A stretch of DNA of 64,000 nucleotides, from contig NZ_CAJNOB010000001.1 in NCBI RefSeq assembly GCF_905250085.1, positions 190,624 through 254,623 of the forward strand. The letters are read 5' to 3'. The first letter of the stretch is position 1; each line of letters opens with the position of its first letter. The translations under genes were made by a program, and so were the position numbers. This document shows positions 12,328-19,707 of the stretch, one piece after another. The notes beneath the pieces were generated by a model. It ran no database searches. It was not told the DNA's origin and saw only the letters and a list, made by a program, of their open reading frames with translations. Source of the DNA: Candidatus Methylacidithermus pantelleriae (GTDB taxonomy: Bacteria; Verrucomicrobiota; Verrucomicrobiia; Methylacidiphilales; Methylacidiphilaceae).

Positions 12328-13179
12328 ATGGAAAACTACGCGATCATTATCCCGACCTATAATCTTTTTCCCATGCTCCGGCGGTGTCTGGAGAGCTTGG
12401 CAACGACCACGAGGACCATGCCCCCAAAGGAAATCCTCGTCATCGATGACGGAAGTACCGACCAAACACGCCCGTGGCTCATGCAACAGGGTCCGCCTCT
12501 GCGGGTCCTTTCCCATGCTCGTCCCCAAGGTTTTGCCAAAAGCTCCAACGAGGGGGCCGCTGAGGCGCAATCTCCGGTTCTTATCTTCCTTAATAACGAT
12601 GTCGAAGCTTTGGCCAACTGGGTCGAACCGCTCCTCGATGTCTTGTGGAGCTACCCCGATGTTGGATTTGTGGGCAATGCCCAGTGGAATCCCAAAACCC
12701 GGCGATGGGACCATTTGGGAGTGGTTTTTAGCCCCGAAGGATTACCCACCCACATGGGCAAGGGCTTTCGATGGAATCCTTTCCGGGGTGTTCGTACCTG
12801 GCGGGCCGTGACAGCAGCATGCTGTGCGATCCGGCGGGAGGTATTTTGGGAAGCGGGGGGCTTTGACACCTCCTTCCGTAATGGCTGGGAAGACATGGAT
12901 CTTTGTTTGCGCTTGGGAAGGAAAGGATATCGCCATTACGTGGCGTATGAAAGCAAGGTCCATCACTGGGTTTCTTCTTCTCCAGGGCGGACGGCATGCG
13001 AGAAGCAAAACCAGGATCTTTTTTTACAACGGTGGCAGGGGAGTCTTAAACAGGAGCTGGGAGCTTCCGAGTTGCGACTGTGGGCCATCAACTACCTGGG
13101 TAGGTATTGCGATCGCCCTTGGGCGTACAACGGGTGGAAACTTGGGAAGGCCTTTCGCGTTCTCCTTCGGGGAAGCTAG
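12328..13179 (+). CDS. Family 2 glycosyltransferase
   Basis: The 283-residue product has the GT-A fold signature: NYAIIIPTYNLFPMLRRCLESL at the start, VIDDGSTDQT (nucleotide-binding Asp), NEGAAEA, then FLNNDVE as the DXD-like metal site near residue 90. A rhamnosyltransferase-like C-terminal part includes WEDMDLCLRLGRKGYR. No transmembrane helix is evident, so it is probably cytoplasmic or membrane-associated. ATG 12328 is preferred over the TTG at 12283, because the domain starts directly after it; no good ribosome-binding site is seen for either. It lies between the exporter genes and the rhamnose genes on the same strand, so transfer of a rhamnosyl unit is an attractive but unproven role. 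Confidence 0.88.
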   Translation: MENYAIIIPTYNLFPMLRRCLESLATTTRTMPPKEILVIDDGSTDQTRPWLMQQGPPLRVLSHARPQGFAKSSNEGAAEAQSPVLIFLNNDVEALANWVEPLLDVLWSYPDVGFVGNAQWNPKTRRWDHLGVVFSPEGLPTHMGKGFRWNPFRGVRTWRAVTAACCAIRREVFWEAGGFDTSFRNGWEDMDLCLRLGRKGYRHYVAYESKVHHWVSSSPGRTACEKQNQDLFLQRWQGSLKQELGASELRLWAINYLGRYCDRPWAYNGWKLGKAFRVLLRGS

Positions 13180-13459: not shown

Positions 13460-14386
13460 ATGGTTTTCCTCTTTGGAGTTACCGGCTATGTCGGTTCCGC
13501 TTTCTTTCAGTACCTTTTGGAACGAAAGGTGCCGGTTCGCGGGTTTTCCCGCAAGGAAGTTAACCTCTTACATCGGGAAGCGCTTTGGCGGTTACTTCAG
13601 GAGTCCAAACCCGAGTTTATCATTAATGCTGCAGGCTACACGGGGAAGCCCAATGTGGATGCTTGTGAGGATCACAAGGCCGAATGTCTTTTGGGCAATG
13701 TGGCAATTCCTGCGGTCCTAAAGGAAGTTTGCGGGGAACTGGGGCTTCCCTGGGGGCATGTGTCATCGGGGTGTATTTACACGGGCTCAAAAGCCGAAAC
13801 CTTCATTGGGCCGGTAGGTTTTAGGGAAGAAGACCCCCCCAATTTTTCGTTTCGGCAGAATAACTGCAGCTTCTATAGTGGAACCAAAGCACTGGCAGAG
13901 GAAATCCTGGCCGACGCGCCCTTGTGTTACCTATGGCGGTTGCGGATACCCTTTGACTCGGTGGATCACCCGAAAAACTATCTCTCCAAGCTTTTGCGCT
14001 ACCCGAAACTGGTAGATGTTCGTAACTCCCTCTCCTATTTGCGAGAATATGTTGCAGCGTGCTGGGCTTGCTGGGAAAAAAGACTTCCCTTCGGGACATT
14101 CAATGTGACAAATCCTGGTTCTGTGACGACCCGGGAGGTGGTCGAGCTTATCCTGGAGTCTCCGCTCGGACCGAAGCTCGTCCAATCGGGCAAGCGCTTT
14201 GAATTTTTTTCCAGCGAAGAGGAATTCTACCGGGAGGCAGCTCGGACCCCTCGATCCAATTGCGTATTGGATAGCTCTAAGATTCTCCAGCACGGGGTTT
14301 TCTTAAGCGACGTGCGCGAGGCGTTGGCGAAGGCTTTACGTTCGTGGCGCTGGAAGGGGGAATGGCGGCTAGGAGAGGAGCCGTGA
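13460..14386 (+). CDS. dTDP/UDP-4-keto-6-deoxyglucose 3,5-epimerase/4-reductase-like (NRS/ER-type) protein
   Basis: A 308-residue Rossmann-fold reductase. Visible are the nucleotide-binding start FLFGVTGYVGS, NAAGYTGKPNVDACEDHK near residues 58-75, SSGCIYTGS, and the SDR catalytic YxxxK in SFYSGTKALAEE. The pattern around NAAG..G.PNVD.CEDHK, the SGCIY segment and FNVTNPG resembles plant NRS/ER and the C-terminal half of RHM enzymes, which do both the 3,5-epimerase and 4-reductase steps, more than classical RmlD. Recognition is from memory of those families. It overlaps rmlB by four bases (GTGA), and rmlA follows, so it should supply the last steps of nucleotide-rhamnose synthesis. No separate rmlC is in the window. 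The ATG at 13460 is preferred over 13421, as the fold begins right after it. Confidence 0.8.
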   Translation: MVFLFGVTGYVGSAFFQYLLERKVPVRGFSRKEVNLLHREALWRLLQESKPEFIINAAGYTGKPNVDACEDHKAECLLGNVAIPAVLKEVCGELGLPWGHVSSGCIYTGSKAETFIGPVGFREEDPPNFSFRQNNCSFYSGTKALAEEILADAPLCYLWRLRIPFDSVDHPKNYLSKLLRYPKLVDVRNSLSYLREYVAACWACWEKRLPFGTFNVTNPGSVTTREVVELILESPLGPKLVQSGKRFEFFSSEEEFYREAARTPRSNCVLDSSKILQHGVFLSDVREALAKALRSWRWKGEWRLGEEP

Positions 14387-15492
14387 CGGAAGAAAAAAGC
14401 TGGTTAATTACAGGGGGAGCTGGGTTTATTGGTTCCAATCTCATTCGCTGGTTACTTTTGGAACAGCCAGCTTCCCAGGCTCCGGTCAGGCTGATTAACC
14501 TCGATAAGCTTACCTACGCCGGGAATTTGGCCAATCTGAAAGAGGTGGAGACTGATCCCCGGTACTGCTTTGTCCATGGTTCAATGGGTGATAAAACCCT
14601 GGTTGCGGAAATTCTCCGGCAGCATCAAGTAGGGGTTCTTTTGCACTTGGCTGCCGAATCGCATGTCGACCGGTCCATTGATGAACCCGAACAATTTGCC
14701 CGAACCAACGTGTTGGAAACGGTTTCGTTATTGGAGACCGTCCTCCAGTATTGGAAGGAACTTCCAAGAAAGGAAGCGCAACGGTTCCGCTTTGTTCATG
14801 TGTCGACCGACGAGGTCTTTGGTTCTCTCTTACCTCAAGAGGAACCTTTTACGGAAAAAACTCCTTACAACCCCTCCAGTCCCTACGCGGCTTCCAAAGC
14901 TGGGGCGGATCATTTTGTCCGGGCGTACGGGAGAACTTTCGGGTTACCCGTGGTTCTCACTCATAGTTCCAATAACTATGGGCCGTACCAGTTTCCGGAA
15001 AAACTTTTGCCTTTAACGATTTTGAACGCCCTCGAAGAGCGCCCGTTACCCCTGTACGGGGATGGGCTACAGGTTCGGGATTGGATTTATGTCCTGGATC
15101 ATTGCCGGGCCCTCCATCGCGTGATCCACAAGGGAAAGCCCGGAGAAAGTTACGCGATTGGCGGAGGGGTGCAAATTTCCAACCTGGATCTGGTGCGAAA
15201 GGTTTGCCGGATACTTGATGAGCGACGTCCGCGGCCCGGAGGCAAAAAACATGAGGAGCTTTTGTGTTTTGTTGCCGATCGGCCTGGACACGACCGTAGA
15301 TATGCGACCAACCCCTCCAAGATCGTTCGAGAACTCGGTTGGAAGCCGCTTGAGGATCTTGAAAGCGGCCTAGCAAAGACGGTGGATTGGTACCTGGCTC
15401 ATCAGGATTGGTGTAGGGAAATTACCGAAAAGCGGTATGCACGCCAGCGGTTAGGATTGCGAGCCTCTTCAAGAAATGAATACGCGGGATAA
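14383..15492 (+). CDS. rmlB: dTDP-glucose 4,6-dehydratase
   Basis: RmlB converts dTDP-glucose to dTDP-4-keto-6-deoxyglucose. The 369-residue product shows the NAD-binding WLITGGAGFIGSNLIRW at its start, LDKLTYAGN, HLAAESHVDRSI, the catalytic STDEVFG segment, and the YAASK active-site motif. SSNNYGPYQFPEKL and DWIYVLDHC further identify the family. I chose the GTG at 14383, which overlaps the upstream stop (GTGA) and follows GGAGAGGAG at ideal spacing. Longer in-frame starts at 14344 (GTG) and 14362 (ATG) lie inside the preceding gene. The length fits the family (about 340-370). It forms the rhamnose cassette with the genes on both sides. Confidence 0.95.
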   Translation: MTEEKSWLITGGAGFIGSNLIRWLLLEQPASQAPVRLINLDKLTYAGNLANLKEVETDPRYCFVHGSMGDKTLVAEILRQHQVGVLLHLAAESHVDRSIDEPEQFARTNVLETVSLLETVLQYWKELPRKEAQRFRFVHVSTDEVFGSLLPQEEPFTEKTPYNPSSPYAASKAGADHFVRAYGRTFGLPVVLTHSSNNYGPYQFPEKLLPLTILNALEERPLPLYGDGLQVRDWIYVLDHCRALHRVIHKGKPGESYAIGGGVQISNLDLVRKVCRILDERRPRPGGKKHEELLCFVADRPGHDRRYATNPSKIVRELGWKPLEDLESGLAKTVDWYLAHQDWCREITEKRYARQRLGLRASSRNEYAG

Positions 15493-15585: not shown

Positions 15586-16515
15586 ATGGGAGAATCCTTA
15601 GTCGAAAGCTCTTCCCCCATCCAACGGCGAGGGATTGTGCTGGCCGGAGGGAGCGGGACGCGACTCTATCCTGTAACACGGGCTGTGAGCAAGCAGCTCA
15701 TGCCGGTCTATGACAAACCGATGGTGTATTATCCGATTTCCGTGCTTATGCTGGCGAACATTCGCACGATCTTATTGATTTCCACGCCAGCCGATCTCCC
15801 GGTCTTTCAGCGACTCCTAAAGGATGGAAGCCAGTTCGGCATCCAGATCTCCTATGCCCTGCAACCCGAGCCTCGGGGGCTTGCGGAGGCCTATCTTATT
15901 GGAGCAGAATTCCTTCGCGGGTTTCCCTCATGCTTGATTTTGGGAGATAATCTTTTCTACGGGCACAATCTAACATCGATTCTCTACCAGGCTTCCTTGC
16001 GAAAGCGGGGTGCGACCATTTTCGCCTACCGGGTTGCCAATCCTTCGGCGTACGGTGTGGTTGAACTTGGCCCGGATGGCAAGGCTTTGTCCCTCGAAGA
16101 AAAGCCTTCCAAACCGCGCTCGCCCTATGCCATTCCAGGAATCTACTTTTGTGACGAGCGAGCACCTGCCTTTGCCAGCCGGTTGCGCCCCTCGACCCGC
16201 GGCGAGCTGGAGATCACCGACTTGCTCCGGTTTTATCTGGAGGAAGGTTCTCTGCACGTGGAATTGCTGGGGCGCGGAACTGCCTGGATGGATACCGGCA
16301 CACCCGATGCTTTGCATGAGGCCAGCTCCTTTGTTCGTGCGATTGAGCATCGCCAAGGGCTTAAGGTGGCGTGTTTGGAAGAGATCGCCTACGCGAAGGG
16401 CTGGATTGATGAGGAGATTCTGGAGCGACAGGCCTTGCTTTACGGGAATTCCTCCTATGGTGCGTACCTCCGGTTTCTGTTGCATTCTGAGGCGGGGCAG
16501 AATTCCTGGGAGTAG
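15586..16515 (+). CDS. rmlA: Glucose-1-phosphate thymidylyltransferase
   Basis: RmlA makes dTDP-glucose from dTTP and glucose-1-phosphate, the first step of dTDP-rhamnose synthesis. The 309-residue protein shows GIVLAGGSGTRLYPVT near residue 16, SKQLMPVYDKPMVYYP, QPEPRGLAEAYLIG, ILGDNLFYGH, the metal/substrate segment AYRVANPSAYGVVE, and GRGTAWMDTGTPDAL. An N-terminal extension of about 14 residues precedes the core. A purine-rich stretch (GAGGAAGGAAAGG) lies before the ATG. It is the third rhamnose gene, 93 bases after rmlB. Its last 155 bases are overlapped on the other strand by the coiled-coil/TPR gene. The rmlA C-terminus (EEIAYAKGWID..) follows the family pattern, so rmlA is the constrained frame here. 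Confidence 0.94.
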   Translation: MGESLVESSSPIQRRGIVLAGGSGTRLYPVTRAVSKQLMPVYDKPMVYYPISVLMLANIRTILLISTPADLPVFQRLLKDGSQFGIQISYALQPEPRGLAEAYLIGAEFLRGFPSCLILGDNLFYGHNLTSILYQASLRKRGATIFAYRVANPSAYGVVELGPDGKALSLEEKPSKPRSPYAIPGIYFCDERAPAFASRLRPSTRGELEITDLLRFYLEEGSLHVELLGRGTAWMDTGTPDALHEASSFVRAIEHRQGLKVACLEEIAYAKGWIDEEILERQALLYGNSSYGAYLRFLLHSEAGQNSWE

Positions 16516-17947
16516 GCTTGTGCTTGGCAGACACACCAGCCGTGATACCCTTGTCTTCGGGATGGTGTTCTTCTTTTTCGCCTAGAAATTGGCCTTTGGC
16601 TCGTAACTGGGCTTGCCGCAAAAGGACACGTGCATTGGTGTCATAAGGATCCATGGCGAGAATCCGGCGGGCTTCTTGGCACGCTCTTTCATAGTTTCCG
16701 CTTTCGAAGTAGACGGTTGCCAAAAGATTCCGAGCGGATAGATCATTGGGATCGTTTTGCAAAAGCTCCTGGAGGAGCATTCGGGCCTTTCTTGTCTGGC
16801 CTTGGTAGAGGGAGAGGTGGGCCAGACCCCGAATCGCAGCTGGATTTCGCGGATCCTGGCGCAAGGCTTGGCGGAGCTCCTTTTCGGCAAGGGCGGCTTT
16901 TCCCTGGGAAAAATACACCGACGCCAGGTTCGCGTGGGCGTTGGTCTCATCCGGAGATTCGGCAAGAATCTTCCGATAACATTCCGCGGCCTCAGCTAAG
17001 CGACCCTCGTAGAAAAAAGCGGCTCCCCTCTCTTCTAGTAGGAGTATCCGGTGGGTGGTATATTCGGGATTGATGGGCTGCAGAGCCAAGGTCGCCCTCC
17101 GCACACGGTCGGTCGCGCTTTCGCCTTGCTGAATTCCCTCCCCGGACGCCAGGGGCGCCTGGCTTTCCGCGGCTGGTTCTGGGCCTCTTGCGGTCGAACC
17201 CTTTTCTTCGAGCGCCGCCAGTTGTCGCTGCAGCCGGGCAATCTCCCGGTTTTTGGCCTCAAGCTCCCTCTGGAAAGAGATTCTGAGATCCCCGTGCTCG
17301 ACCGGTTCTTGGGTTGTCCTGGGAGATAAATGCGTGCCCTGGGCCGTGGAATGCGTCCCGTGGGCCGGGGCCGGGAAACGAAGCGGCTCTGACCCATTCA
17401 AGCGCTTGGGAGACGAATGGGCCAGGGGTAGCGCTCCTTCGGTGGAAGGGCGCTCCTTTCGGGCGGCTAACTCCTTTTCCAGTTCCTTCACACGCTGACG
17501 GAGCTGATGGAGCTGCGCCAAGGTTTCCCGGTAAGTTTGTGGGGCAGGTGCGGCGGGTGGGCCTTGAGAAAAAGCCGTCTCGGGAGAGGGTTCCCTTTCC
17601 TCGATTCCCGAAAGCTTTCGTAAGCGCTCTTCGACAAAATCCAGACGGTAACGAATGATACCCGGTTCCCATTCCGGGTAGTCGTGCCTCAGCTTAAGCA
17701 AACCCTGCCGCACCGTTTGGTACCTCTGCCGCGCAAGCGGGAGGTGTCCCGACTTTTCTAAGCGCTCAGCGTCTTTGAGAATAAAGTAGAGTTCTAAAAA
17801 GCGATCCTGGGGAGAAGTAAGCGCTTCGGCATAAAGAGTACCCCCGGGGGTTCCGGCTACGGCAAGAAGCCACCCTACGAGGAGAGAAATCCCGGTTTGC
17901 CGCCAGGTCCCAAAGGAACCTCCTTCAAAGAAGCTCCTAATCACCAT
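16361..17947 (-). CDS. Envelope coiled-coil/TPR protein, paralogue of the one at 2182-4359
   Basis: The 528-residue product has a hydrophobic signal or anchor (about residues 18-40) and the same N-terminal module as the first protein: SPQDRFLELYFILKDAERLE, then YPEWEPGIIRYR. A shorter coiled coil (about 130-165 and 215-240), a low-complexity linker, and about five TPR units (roughly 300-450, for example RLAEAAECYRKILAESPDETNAHANL) follow. The C-terminal 60-70 residues are basic and low in complexity, and are encoded antisense to rmlA. ATG 17947 is preferred over the TTG at 17977. I infer an envelope scaffold related to the neighbouring polysaccharide/export genes, but nothing in the sequence shows a specific partner. 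Confidence 0.82.
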   Translation of the reverse strand: MVIRSFFEGGSFGTWRQTGISLLVGWLLAVAGTPGGTLYAEALTSPQDRFLELYFILKDAERLEKSGHLPLARQRYQTVRQGLLKLRHDYPEWEPGIIRYRLDFVEERLRKLSGIEEREPSPETAFSQGPPAAPAPQTYRETLAQLHQLRQRVKELEKELAARKERPSTEGALPLAHSSPKRLNGSEPLRFPAPAHGTHSTAQGTHLSPRTTQEPVEHGDLRISFQRELEAKNREIARLQRQLAALEEKGSTARGPEPAAESQAPLASGEGIQQGESATDRVRRATLALQPINPEYTTHRILLLEERGAAFFYEGRLAEAAECYRKILAESPDETNAHANLASVYFSQGKAALAEKELRQALRQDPRNPAAIRGLAHLSLYQGQTRKARMLLQELLQNDPNDLSARNLLATVYFESGNYERACQEARRILAMDPYDTNARVLLRQAQLRAKGQFLGEKEEHHPEDKGITAGVSAKHKPTPRNSAPPQNATETGGTHHRRNSRKARPVAPESPHQSSPSRRRSLPNTPP

Positions 17948-18513
17948 GGGTCGGGTCGCCTCTTGCCGCAAATTCAAGCCCTCTTGCTATCCCTAGGTTT
18001 GGCTACTTTCCCCACCCTGCGCTTGCAAACCCCGGGGTTACTCGACGCCAAGCCACACTCTCCCATTCTAGGAAAGTGCACTCCAGCCCCTGGGCTTCGT
18101 CAAATCCAAAAACTCCGGTTAGGAAAGGACCATCCCACTTCGCAAGCGCAACAGCGGGCAAAGAGTGGTTTCTTTTGTTCTTGAACCAAACTCCCGGCGA
18201 ACCGATTCGGACGCCATAGTTGTACGGTTTCCTTTTTCGCCCATAGTAGGAGCCGGAACGGCTATCCTAGAGGGGACGATCCTCAGCGGGTTGGGTTTGC
18301 CGCTGCCGAGGGGTTCTGGGAGAACGTAACCGCGGCTCCTTGGGCCCGATTGTGCTGCTTCCCTGGGCCTAACAGGGCTTTTTTCTCTCTGGATGGCTTC
18401 GAGAAAGCTCCCATCGGCCTGCCCAGAAAACATGGTCCCAAATCTCTCTCGGCCAAAACGGCATCTCTAAGAAGGTTCTTGACTCGCAGTCCGACGAGGG
18501 TCGAGTAGACGTT
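17948..18513. other. Divergent intergenic region, no gene seen
   Basis: This 566-base stretch lies between the divergent TPR and DegT genes. Short open frames occur on both strands but none has a recognisable domain, good start context or family resemblance. Promoters for both neighbours are expected; I could not identify a convincing pair. Confidence 0.4.
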
Positions 18514-19707
18514 GTGCGTGTGCAGATCGGTATGTTGGATGCGATTGGGGAGAAGCCCTGGGAGCGGCAAGCGCTCCACGAAGTCCTGGAGCGGGTTCTG
18601 GAGCATGGCCAGTTCATCCTGGGTGAGGAAGTTTCCCGGTTTGAATCCAAGATGCGGGACTATCTGGGGGTTCGTCATGCGGTAGGAGTCTCCTCGGGAA
18701 CGGATGCGCTTTGGATTGCTCTTTTAACGCTCGGTATCGGGCCAGGGGACGAGGTCATTTGCCCTGCCTTTACTTTTGTGGCCACGGCGGATGCCATTGC
18801 GCTGGTAGGGGCCAAGCCGGTTTTCGTCGATGTCTATCCTTGTTGTTTTACCCTCTCGGTGGAAGACCTCTTACGGAAATGGACCCCGCAAACGAGGGCC
18901 ATTATGGTGGTTCATCTTTTTGGCCAGCCGGCGCAAATGGATCGGCTCGCAGCCATTGCCGCGCAGCGTGGTGCATACCTCATTGAGGATGCGGCTCAGG
19001 CGCTGGGTACCACCTACGGCGGTCGAAAAGCCGGAACGCTGGGCACGGTCGGTTGCTTTTCCTTCTATCCCACCAAGAATCTAGGGGCCCTCGGAGACGC
19101 AGGGCTGGTGGTGACAGGAGACGATGGCTTGGCAAAGAAAATACTTGCCCTCCGCTCGCACGGAGCTGTGGGCCGGTATCGATACCGGTGGGTAAGCGGA
19201 AATTTCCGGTTGGATGCGCTGCAAGCTGCGTGGCTCGAATCTCGGCTGCCAGCCCTGGAGTCGAAGCTTGCTGCCCGCAAGCAGAACGCGGAAAGATACA
19301 TCTCTCGGTTTCTTAGTTCTGGGCTTGCGCAAGTCTATCCAAGCGTATGCTCAACCGGGCCGACCAGGGTTGCAACGACGGAGGAGCCACTTTTGTGGCT
19401 GCCTCCGGTGTGCCGGAGCGGGCATAGCTGGAACCAGTTTGTGGTCCGGCTCCACCCGCGTATCGACCGGGATTGGGTACAGCAAGCCTTGCGGAAAGAG
19501 GGGATAGAGACGGCAGTTTACTACCCGGTTCCGCTCCACTTGCAGGAGTGTTTCCAGTGGCTCCAGGGCAGGCCAGGGGATTGCCCCCATTCCGAGGAGC
19601 TTGCAGGATCTTCCTTGGCCTTGCCGGTTCATGCGGGTTTAGGACCCGAGGAGGTGGACTACGTGGTGGAAACCCTCGTCCGGTTGCTTCGCTCGCAACA
19701 GCTTTGA
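18514..19707 (+). CDS. DegT/DnrJ/EryC1-family sugar aminotransferase
   Basis: A 397-residue fold-type I PLP enzyme of the family that aminates nucleotide-linked keto-sugars using glutamate or glutamine. Visible features are VSSGTDALWIAL (PLP phosphate site) near residue 65, PAFTFVATADAI, DVYPCCFTLSVEDL, the cofactor-binding EDAAQALG, the Schiff-base lysine in SFYPTKNLGALGDAG near residue 190, and GNFRLDALQAAWL. The reading frame opens with GTG at 18514; an ATG six codons later is also possible. It lies close to the rhamnose genes and may use the 4-keto-6-deoxyglucose intermediate made by RmlB to form an amino sugar. That is an inference from position only; its substrate cannot be read from sequence. 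Confidence 0.88.
   Translation: MRVQIGMLDAIGEKPWERQALHEVLERVLEHGQFILGEEVSRFESKMRDYLGVRHAVGVSSGTDALWIALLTLGIGPGDEVICPAFTFVATADAIALVGAKPVFVDVYPCCFTLSVEDLLRKWTPQTRAIMVVHLFGQPAQMDRLAAIAAQRGAYLIEDAAQALGTTYGGRKAGTLGTVGCFSFYPTKNLGALGDAGLVVTGDDGLAKKILALRSHGAVGRYRYRWVSGNFRLDALQAAWLESRLPALESKLAARKQNAERYISRFLSSGLAQVYPSVCSTGPTRVATTEEPLLWLPPVCRSGHSWNQFVVRLHPRIDRDWVQQALRKEGIETAVYYPVPLHLQECFQWLQGRPGDCPHSEELAGSSLALPVHAGLGPEEVDYVVETLVRLLRSQQL

Follow-up and report, generated by a model that had tools for sequence, protein, structure and literature searches.

A stretch of 64,000 nucleotides from Candidatus Methylacidithermus pantelleriae (hereafter the window) carries an NRS/ER-type gene followed by rmlB and rmlA, and we consider it highly probable that these three genes make up a short dTDP-L-rhamnose pathway in which the NRS/ER protein stands in for both RmlC and RmlD. 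The bacterial dTDP-rhamnose pathway is usually described as the four-enzyme RmlABCD route. In the arrangement proposed here, RmlA and RmlB would supply the dTDP-type part of the route, and the single NRS/ER protein would perform both the 3,5-epimerisation and the 4-reduction, taking the place of RmlC, a cupin epimerase, and of RmlD, a reductase. The two activities are predictions, as are the dTDP carrier and the L-rhamnose product. In this bacterium, in many of its verrucomicrobial relatives and in many uncultured phages, one plant-like enzyme stands in precisely the position that RmlC and RmlD hold in other bacteria, so that a rhamnose pathway of three genes very probably exists in bacteria. 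This replacement, put forward in the original prediction, is supported by sequence, fold, phylogeny, active-site residues, genome-wide absence of the two genes, phylum-wide exclusion and an in-place swap. The relevant features of the window are as follows.

12328..13179, + strand, glycosyltransferase family 2 (GT2), immediately upstream of the NRS/ER gene, candidate user of the sugar
13460..14386, + strand, NRS/ER-type 3,5-epimerase/4-reductase gene, 308 aa, predicted replacement of rmlC and rmlD
Predicted active site of this protein, from alignment: C105 and K177 (epimerase), Y139 and K143 (SDR reductase)
14383..15492, + strand, rmlB, dTDP-glucose 4,6-dehydratase (TIGR01181, 451 bits, cut-off 365)
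15586..16515, + strand, rmlA, glucose-1-phosphate thymidylyltransferase (TIGR01207, 441 bits, cut-off 361)
16361-17977, - strand, TPR-type protein ORF between rmlA and the DegT gene, overlapping the 3' end of rmlA
18514..19707, + strand, DegT/DnrJ/EryC1 aminotransferase, downstream, beyond the TPR ORF

The NRS/ER reading frame runs on the + strand from ATG 13460 to the stop codon TGA at 14384-14386. The likely start of rmlB, GTG 14383, has two bases in common with this stop codon (a GTGA overlap) and is preceded by the ribosome-binding-like sequence TAGGAGAGGAG; the longest rmlB ORF begins at GTG 14344. A gap of 93 bases separates rmlB from rmlA. The GT2 start at 12328 is one possible ATG, the longest GT2 ORF beginning at TTG 12283. 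RmlA and RmlB both score above curated dTDP-specific cut-offs and are linked, and the NRS/ER protein probably uses dTDP, since its gene adjoins this dTDP-type pair. Neither rmlC nor rmlD was found between or beside the three genes in the window, as the original prediction had noted for rmlC. Because a DegT gene directly follows rmlA in Methylacidimicrobium relatives, the aminotransferase at 18514..19707 possibly belongs to a wider cluster. Scans for promoters, terminators and repeats gave nothing above chance.

By its sequence, the ORF at 13460-14386 is an NRS/ER-type protein. Its 308-aa translation contains NAAGYTGKPNVDACEDHK, SSGCIY and SFYSGTK, the motif pattern on which that assignment had first been based. 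A search of solved structures placed Arabidopsis NRS/ER (4qqr) at the top with E=1.5e-40 and mimivirus UDP-rhamnose synthase (7jid) second with 4.7e-17, whereas the best RmlD reached only E=0.0073, so that the likeness to NRS/ER is far above chance. The family profile matched 4qqr at 7.4e-75, 7jid at 2.3e-55 and the best RmlD at 7.6e-23. The protein scored 58.7 bits against the rmlD equivalog TIGR01214 (cut-off 224), 23.7 bits against the GDP-L-fucose synthase equivalog NF047922 (cut-off 500) and 68 bits against Pfam RmlD_sub_bind. Its predicted structure (pLDDT 94.6) aligned with 7jid at a TM of 0.85 and with 4qqr at 0.78, compared with about 0.69-0.78 for RmlDs. The choice of NRS/ER over RmlD is thus borne out by the structure-search E-values, the rmlD model score and the fold, and also by the active-site residues and the tree described below.

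All the SDR features are present, namely the G6-G9-G12 glycines, Y139 and K143. An alignment of 217 family sequences shows no variation at C105, Y139 and K143; at K177 it shows one change, from K to R, the other 216 sequences keeping the lysine. C105 and K177 correspond to C115 and K183 of Arabidopsis NRS/ER, as judged from the structure-search alignment; we take the Arabidopsis residues to be the epimerase acid/base pair of the structural literature. At these two positions RmlD mostly has Tyr and Thr, and GDP-fucose synthase has the Cys and lacks the Lys.

In a 60-sequence tree, an NRS/ER group composed of bacterial, phage, giant-virus-like, mimivirus and Arabidopsis sequences separated from RmlD and GDP-fucose synthase with support of 98/91 (bootstrap/SH-aLRT), the window protein falling on the NRS/ER side and grouping with its own family at 99/97. 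A larger, quicker tree recovered the same separation at an SH-aLRT of 92. The eukaryote/giant-virus clade (100/100 in the 60-sequence tree) lies among viral sequences in that tree (95/97) and is sister to bacteria plus phage in the larger one; the trees hold only two eukaryote-side reference sequences, and the long outgroup branches make the root unsafe. Horizontal gain from plants is not supported, as the bacterial sequences are not nested within the eukaryotic clade in either tree. The description of the route as eukaryote-like therefore holds for the kinship with NRS/ER and fails as a statement of plant origin, the bacterial and phage sequences being lineages of their own.

The window's own assembly (2.46 Mb, 99.91% complete) was searched for both of the missing genes, and neither was found: there was no PF00908 match for rmlC, and thus no sign of the separate RmlC epimerase that would be a hallmark of an RmlD-based route, and no TIGR01214 match for rmlD at E<=1e-40. 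The NRS/ER protein was the sole model-spanning PF04321 match, the rest being partial matches of SDR proteins. The NRS/ER gene is present in 48 of the 388 genomes searched from the phylum, with carriers at E below 1e-30 and the remainder above 1e-9, so that the two sets are clearly apart. RmlB is present in 46 of the 48 carriers. A strong RmlC match (E below 1e-20) was seen in 6/48 carriers versus 234/340 non-carriers, and cut-off-level RmlD in about 3/48 (estimated from E-values) versus 234/340. The corresponding Fisher p-values, 6e-14 for RmlC and 2e-17 for RmlD, treat genomes as independent and overstate the evidence because the genomes are related. No rmlC was found in Chthoniobacter flavus or in three genomes labelled Planctomycetota, all four of which have the NRS/ER gene. 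Among 199 sampled genomes from the phylum of G388 (Planctomycetaceae), a match at E<=1e-15 was seen in only four, with 35-38% identity in three; a contig of Roseimaritima sediminicola (L061) may be contamination, given the depth of 0.82x in its header. The genome G008 holds two complete NRS/ER-rmlB pairs, on contigs C18 and C19.

Counting against the three-gene reading is the strong RmlC-family gene in 6 of the 48 carriers, namely G039, G051, G069, G149 (one genus, in the family of the window organism), G255 and G269, and in particular that of G039, which is above the rmlC cut-off in a genome whose NRS/ER lies away from rmlA and rmlB. We scanned the surroundings of RmlC in three of the six (G039, G255 and G269); two of these three genes lie beside cytidylyltransferase-type genes, and two are under the rmlC cut-off of 155.75 (G255 and G269, both 143 bits). 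The neighbours in G255 are a glucose-1-phosphate cytidylyltransferase (365 bits, cut-off 300) and a CDP-glucose 4,6-dehydratase (445 bits, cut-off 278), and these make a CDP-sugar role likely for its RmlC-family gene. The RmlC of the Methylacidiphilum-type genome G039 scores 171 bits and adjoins a glucose-1-phosphate cytidylyltransferase-like gene at 280 bits, just under its cut-off, and G069 has the same layout, judged by sequence; this neighbour makes a CDP-sugar role plausible in both genomes. The NRS/ER of G039 (locus L136) sits beside a DegT gene rather than beside rmlA or rmlB, and since its rmlB is far off in the genome (C1:2398538), the operon is broken in this genus. The close relative G149 has an NRS/ER gene (C1:26466-27352) that seems interrupted, as it contains one TAA and finishes in another reading frame; the genus of G149 has its RmlC-family gene elsewhere in the genome.

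A scan of the genome collection yielded 495 relatives of the window protein, and the best 80 of these are nearly all from Verrucomicrobiota. For 59 bacterial loci the sequence extended 3.5 kb or more downstream. Same-strand neighbours within 6 kb of the NRS/ER gene include rmlB in 58 of these loci and both rmlB and rmlA in 56, and neither rmlC nor rmlD was found in any of the 59. Chance or an annotation artefact is ruled out by a gene order kept in 56/59 loci. The decisive comparison for the substitution comes from two genomes of the same family: G269 (locus L141) reads GT2, NRS/ER, rmlB, rmlA, GT, and G096 (L143) reads GT2, rmlC, rmlD, rmlB, rmlA, GT. The one NRS/ER gene in L141 occupies the slot of rmlC-rmlD in the syntenic L143. 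The flanking GT2 proteins of the two loci are 71% identical, the rmlC (227 bits) and rmlD (331 bits) of L143 are both above their cut-offs, and flank identities between L143 and another carrier locus, L081, reach 84% for GT2, 84% for rmlB and 78% for rmlA.

These results bear on several other readings of the window gene. A diverged RmlD acting as a 4-reductase only, with the epimerisation left to an enzyme that goes unrecognised elsewhere in the genome, would fit the 68-bit RmlD_sub_bind match and the fold common to RmlD; we regard it as highly unlikely, because the protein falls far below the rmlD cut-off (58.7 bits against 224), groups with NRS/ER apart from RmlD at 98/91 and retains the Cys and Lys that are typical of NRS/ER and missing from RmlD, because rmlC is missing in step with the NRS/ER gene across the phylum, and because the L143 slot holds rmlC and rmlD both, not rmlD alone. 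The least probable reading, in our judgement, is a dTDP-aminosugar route with the DegT at 18514 in place of a rhamnose enzyme. The position of DegT directly behind rmlA in Methylacidimicrobium (L042-L044 and L046) and next to NRS/ER in G039 speaks for it; however, most Opitutaceae loci consist of NRS/ER-rmlB-rmlA plus GT2, with DegT absent or more distant on the other strand, a strong DegT match is absent from most phage cassettes, and all the epimerase-reductase active-site residues are kept.

A bifunctional epimerase-reductase with another product or carrier, such as dTDP-6-deoxy-L-talose or, as in plants, UDP-L-rhamnose, is improbable in our view, although the stereochemistry of C4 reduction is not readable from sequence and the enzymes of plants and fungi favour UDP substrates (PMC6556577). 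Against it stand the RmlA and RmlB scores over dTDP-specific cut-offs, the dTDP-rhamnose pair rmlC-rmlD in the syntenic slot of G096, and the nearest characterised relatives, which make L-rhamnose. The short dTDP-L-rhamnose pathway thus remains the favoured reading of NRS/ER-rmlB-rmlA.

Relatives of the window protein are also found in viruses. A scan of IMG/VR viral contigs returned at least 571 contigs with relatives, often in rmlA-NRS/ER-rmlB cassettes without rmlC or rmlD (L039 and L156-L233). We examined 50 viral loci longer than 12 kb; genes like rmlA and rmlB both lay within 6 kb in 25 of them, and neither rmlC nor rmlD was found in any. In three of four scanned viral loci, the neighbours match phage families (Dda-like helicase, exonuclease, dNMP kinase and PhoH). 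The window protein had no match among 50,697 phage records, and two phage-type proteins found matches there at about 22-29% identity only, several annotated as RmlD or nucleotide-sugar epimerase; with isolate phage records lacking such a gene, the phage members are known here from uncultured contigs only. Against plasmids, the window protein gave RmlD-level matches only (23-33% identity). A further set of viral contigs (L234-L242) carries an Arabidopsis-like NRS/ER (35-49%); in L236-L242 an RmlA-like nucleotidyltransferase (31-34%) directly precedes it, and in L234 an RmlB-like gene directly follows it.

Among characterised enzymes, plant NRS/ER (Arabidopsis UER1, 4qqr) and the C-terminal domain of RHM resemble the window protein in being a single SDR domain, at about 32-35% identity, with the same Cys/Lys and Tyr/Lys and a place in the same clade in both trees. 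They differ in preferring UDP (PMC6556577), whereas the window gene is bacterial, lies beside dTDP-type rmlA and rmlB and is unfused to a dehydratase. The mimivirus UDP-L-rhamnose synthase (L780, 7jid) is the closest solved fold and keeps the active-site residues compared, yet it is only 24% identical in the structural alignment and belongs to the eukaryotic/giant-virus clade, not with the bacteria. RmlC and RmlD carry out the same two steps from the same operon slot; they are, however, two unrelated proteins, a cupin and an SDR, in place of one SDR, and RmlD is without the Cys and Lys. In Prymnesium parvum and other haptophytes, an RmlCD fusion shown to make dTDP-rhamnose (PMC6556577) likewise places both steps on one polypeptide, but it joins a cupin RmlC to RmlD, whereas the window protein is one SDR domain with no cupin. 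GDP-L-fucose synthase (GMER/Fcl) is also an SDR that combines C3/C5 epimerisation and C4 reduction in one site, with the Cys in common; it differs in acting in the GDP-mannose pathway, in having no Lys at the position of 177, in forming a separate clade and in its model, which the window protein matches at 23.7 bits against a cut-off of 500.

Yin et al. 2011 (PMC3220709) report that the C-terminal domain of RHM has just four homologues in bacteria, all from Verrucomicrobia; given the same phylum and the same homology, they almost certainly belong to the bacterial family described here. In the accessible text of that paper, the operon, the loss of rmlC and rmlD, and phage members are not described. 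The original prediction that such a route would be unusual is therefore half right, since these four homologues were already on record and the gene occurs in 48/388 genomes of the phylum. To this the present analysis adds the family-wide arrangement, the natural in-place swap and the phage cassette. We found neither an assay of any bacterial NRS/ER nor such a phage cassette in the literature, which is weak evidence, as only open-licence papers were covered. Archaea are reported to have no NRS/ER homologue (PMC4022621).

Tentatively, rmlA-rmlB-NRS/ER may be an old, self-standing prokaryotic and phage route, a cassette exchanged between phages and PVC bacteria, from which eukaryotic NRS/ER and RHM would descend, the carrier having changed later from dTDP to UDP; we hold this to be possible rather than probable. 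PMC3220709 suggests that a single gene of a donor prokaryote might already have encoded both epimerase and reductase, and leaves the origin open. If true, the old prokaryotic and phage route would be the donor operon with a one-gene epimerase-reductase postulated there.

A three-gene route throughout a bacterial group would mean that genomes scored as rhamnose-negative on account of a missing rmlC or rmlD may have been misjudged, and that some annotations of dTDP-4-dehydrorhamnose reductase in these genomes and viromes are probably wrong. The minimal cassette found in uncultured phages is complete and presumably serves to decorate a surface. Yin et al. 2011 left open where the plant and fungal rhamnose enzyme came from (PMC3220709), and this family offers a concrete, testable candidate for its bacterial ancestor.
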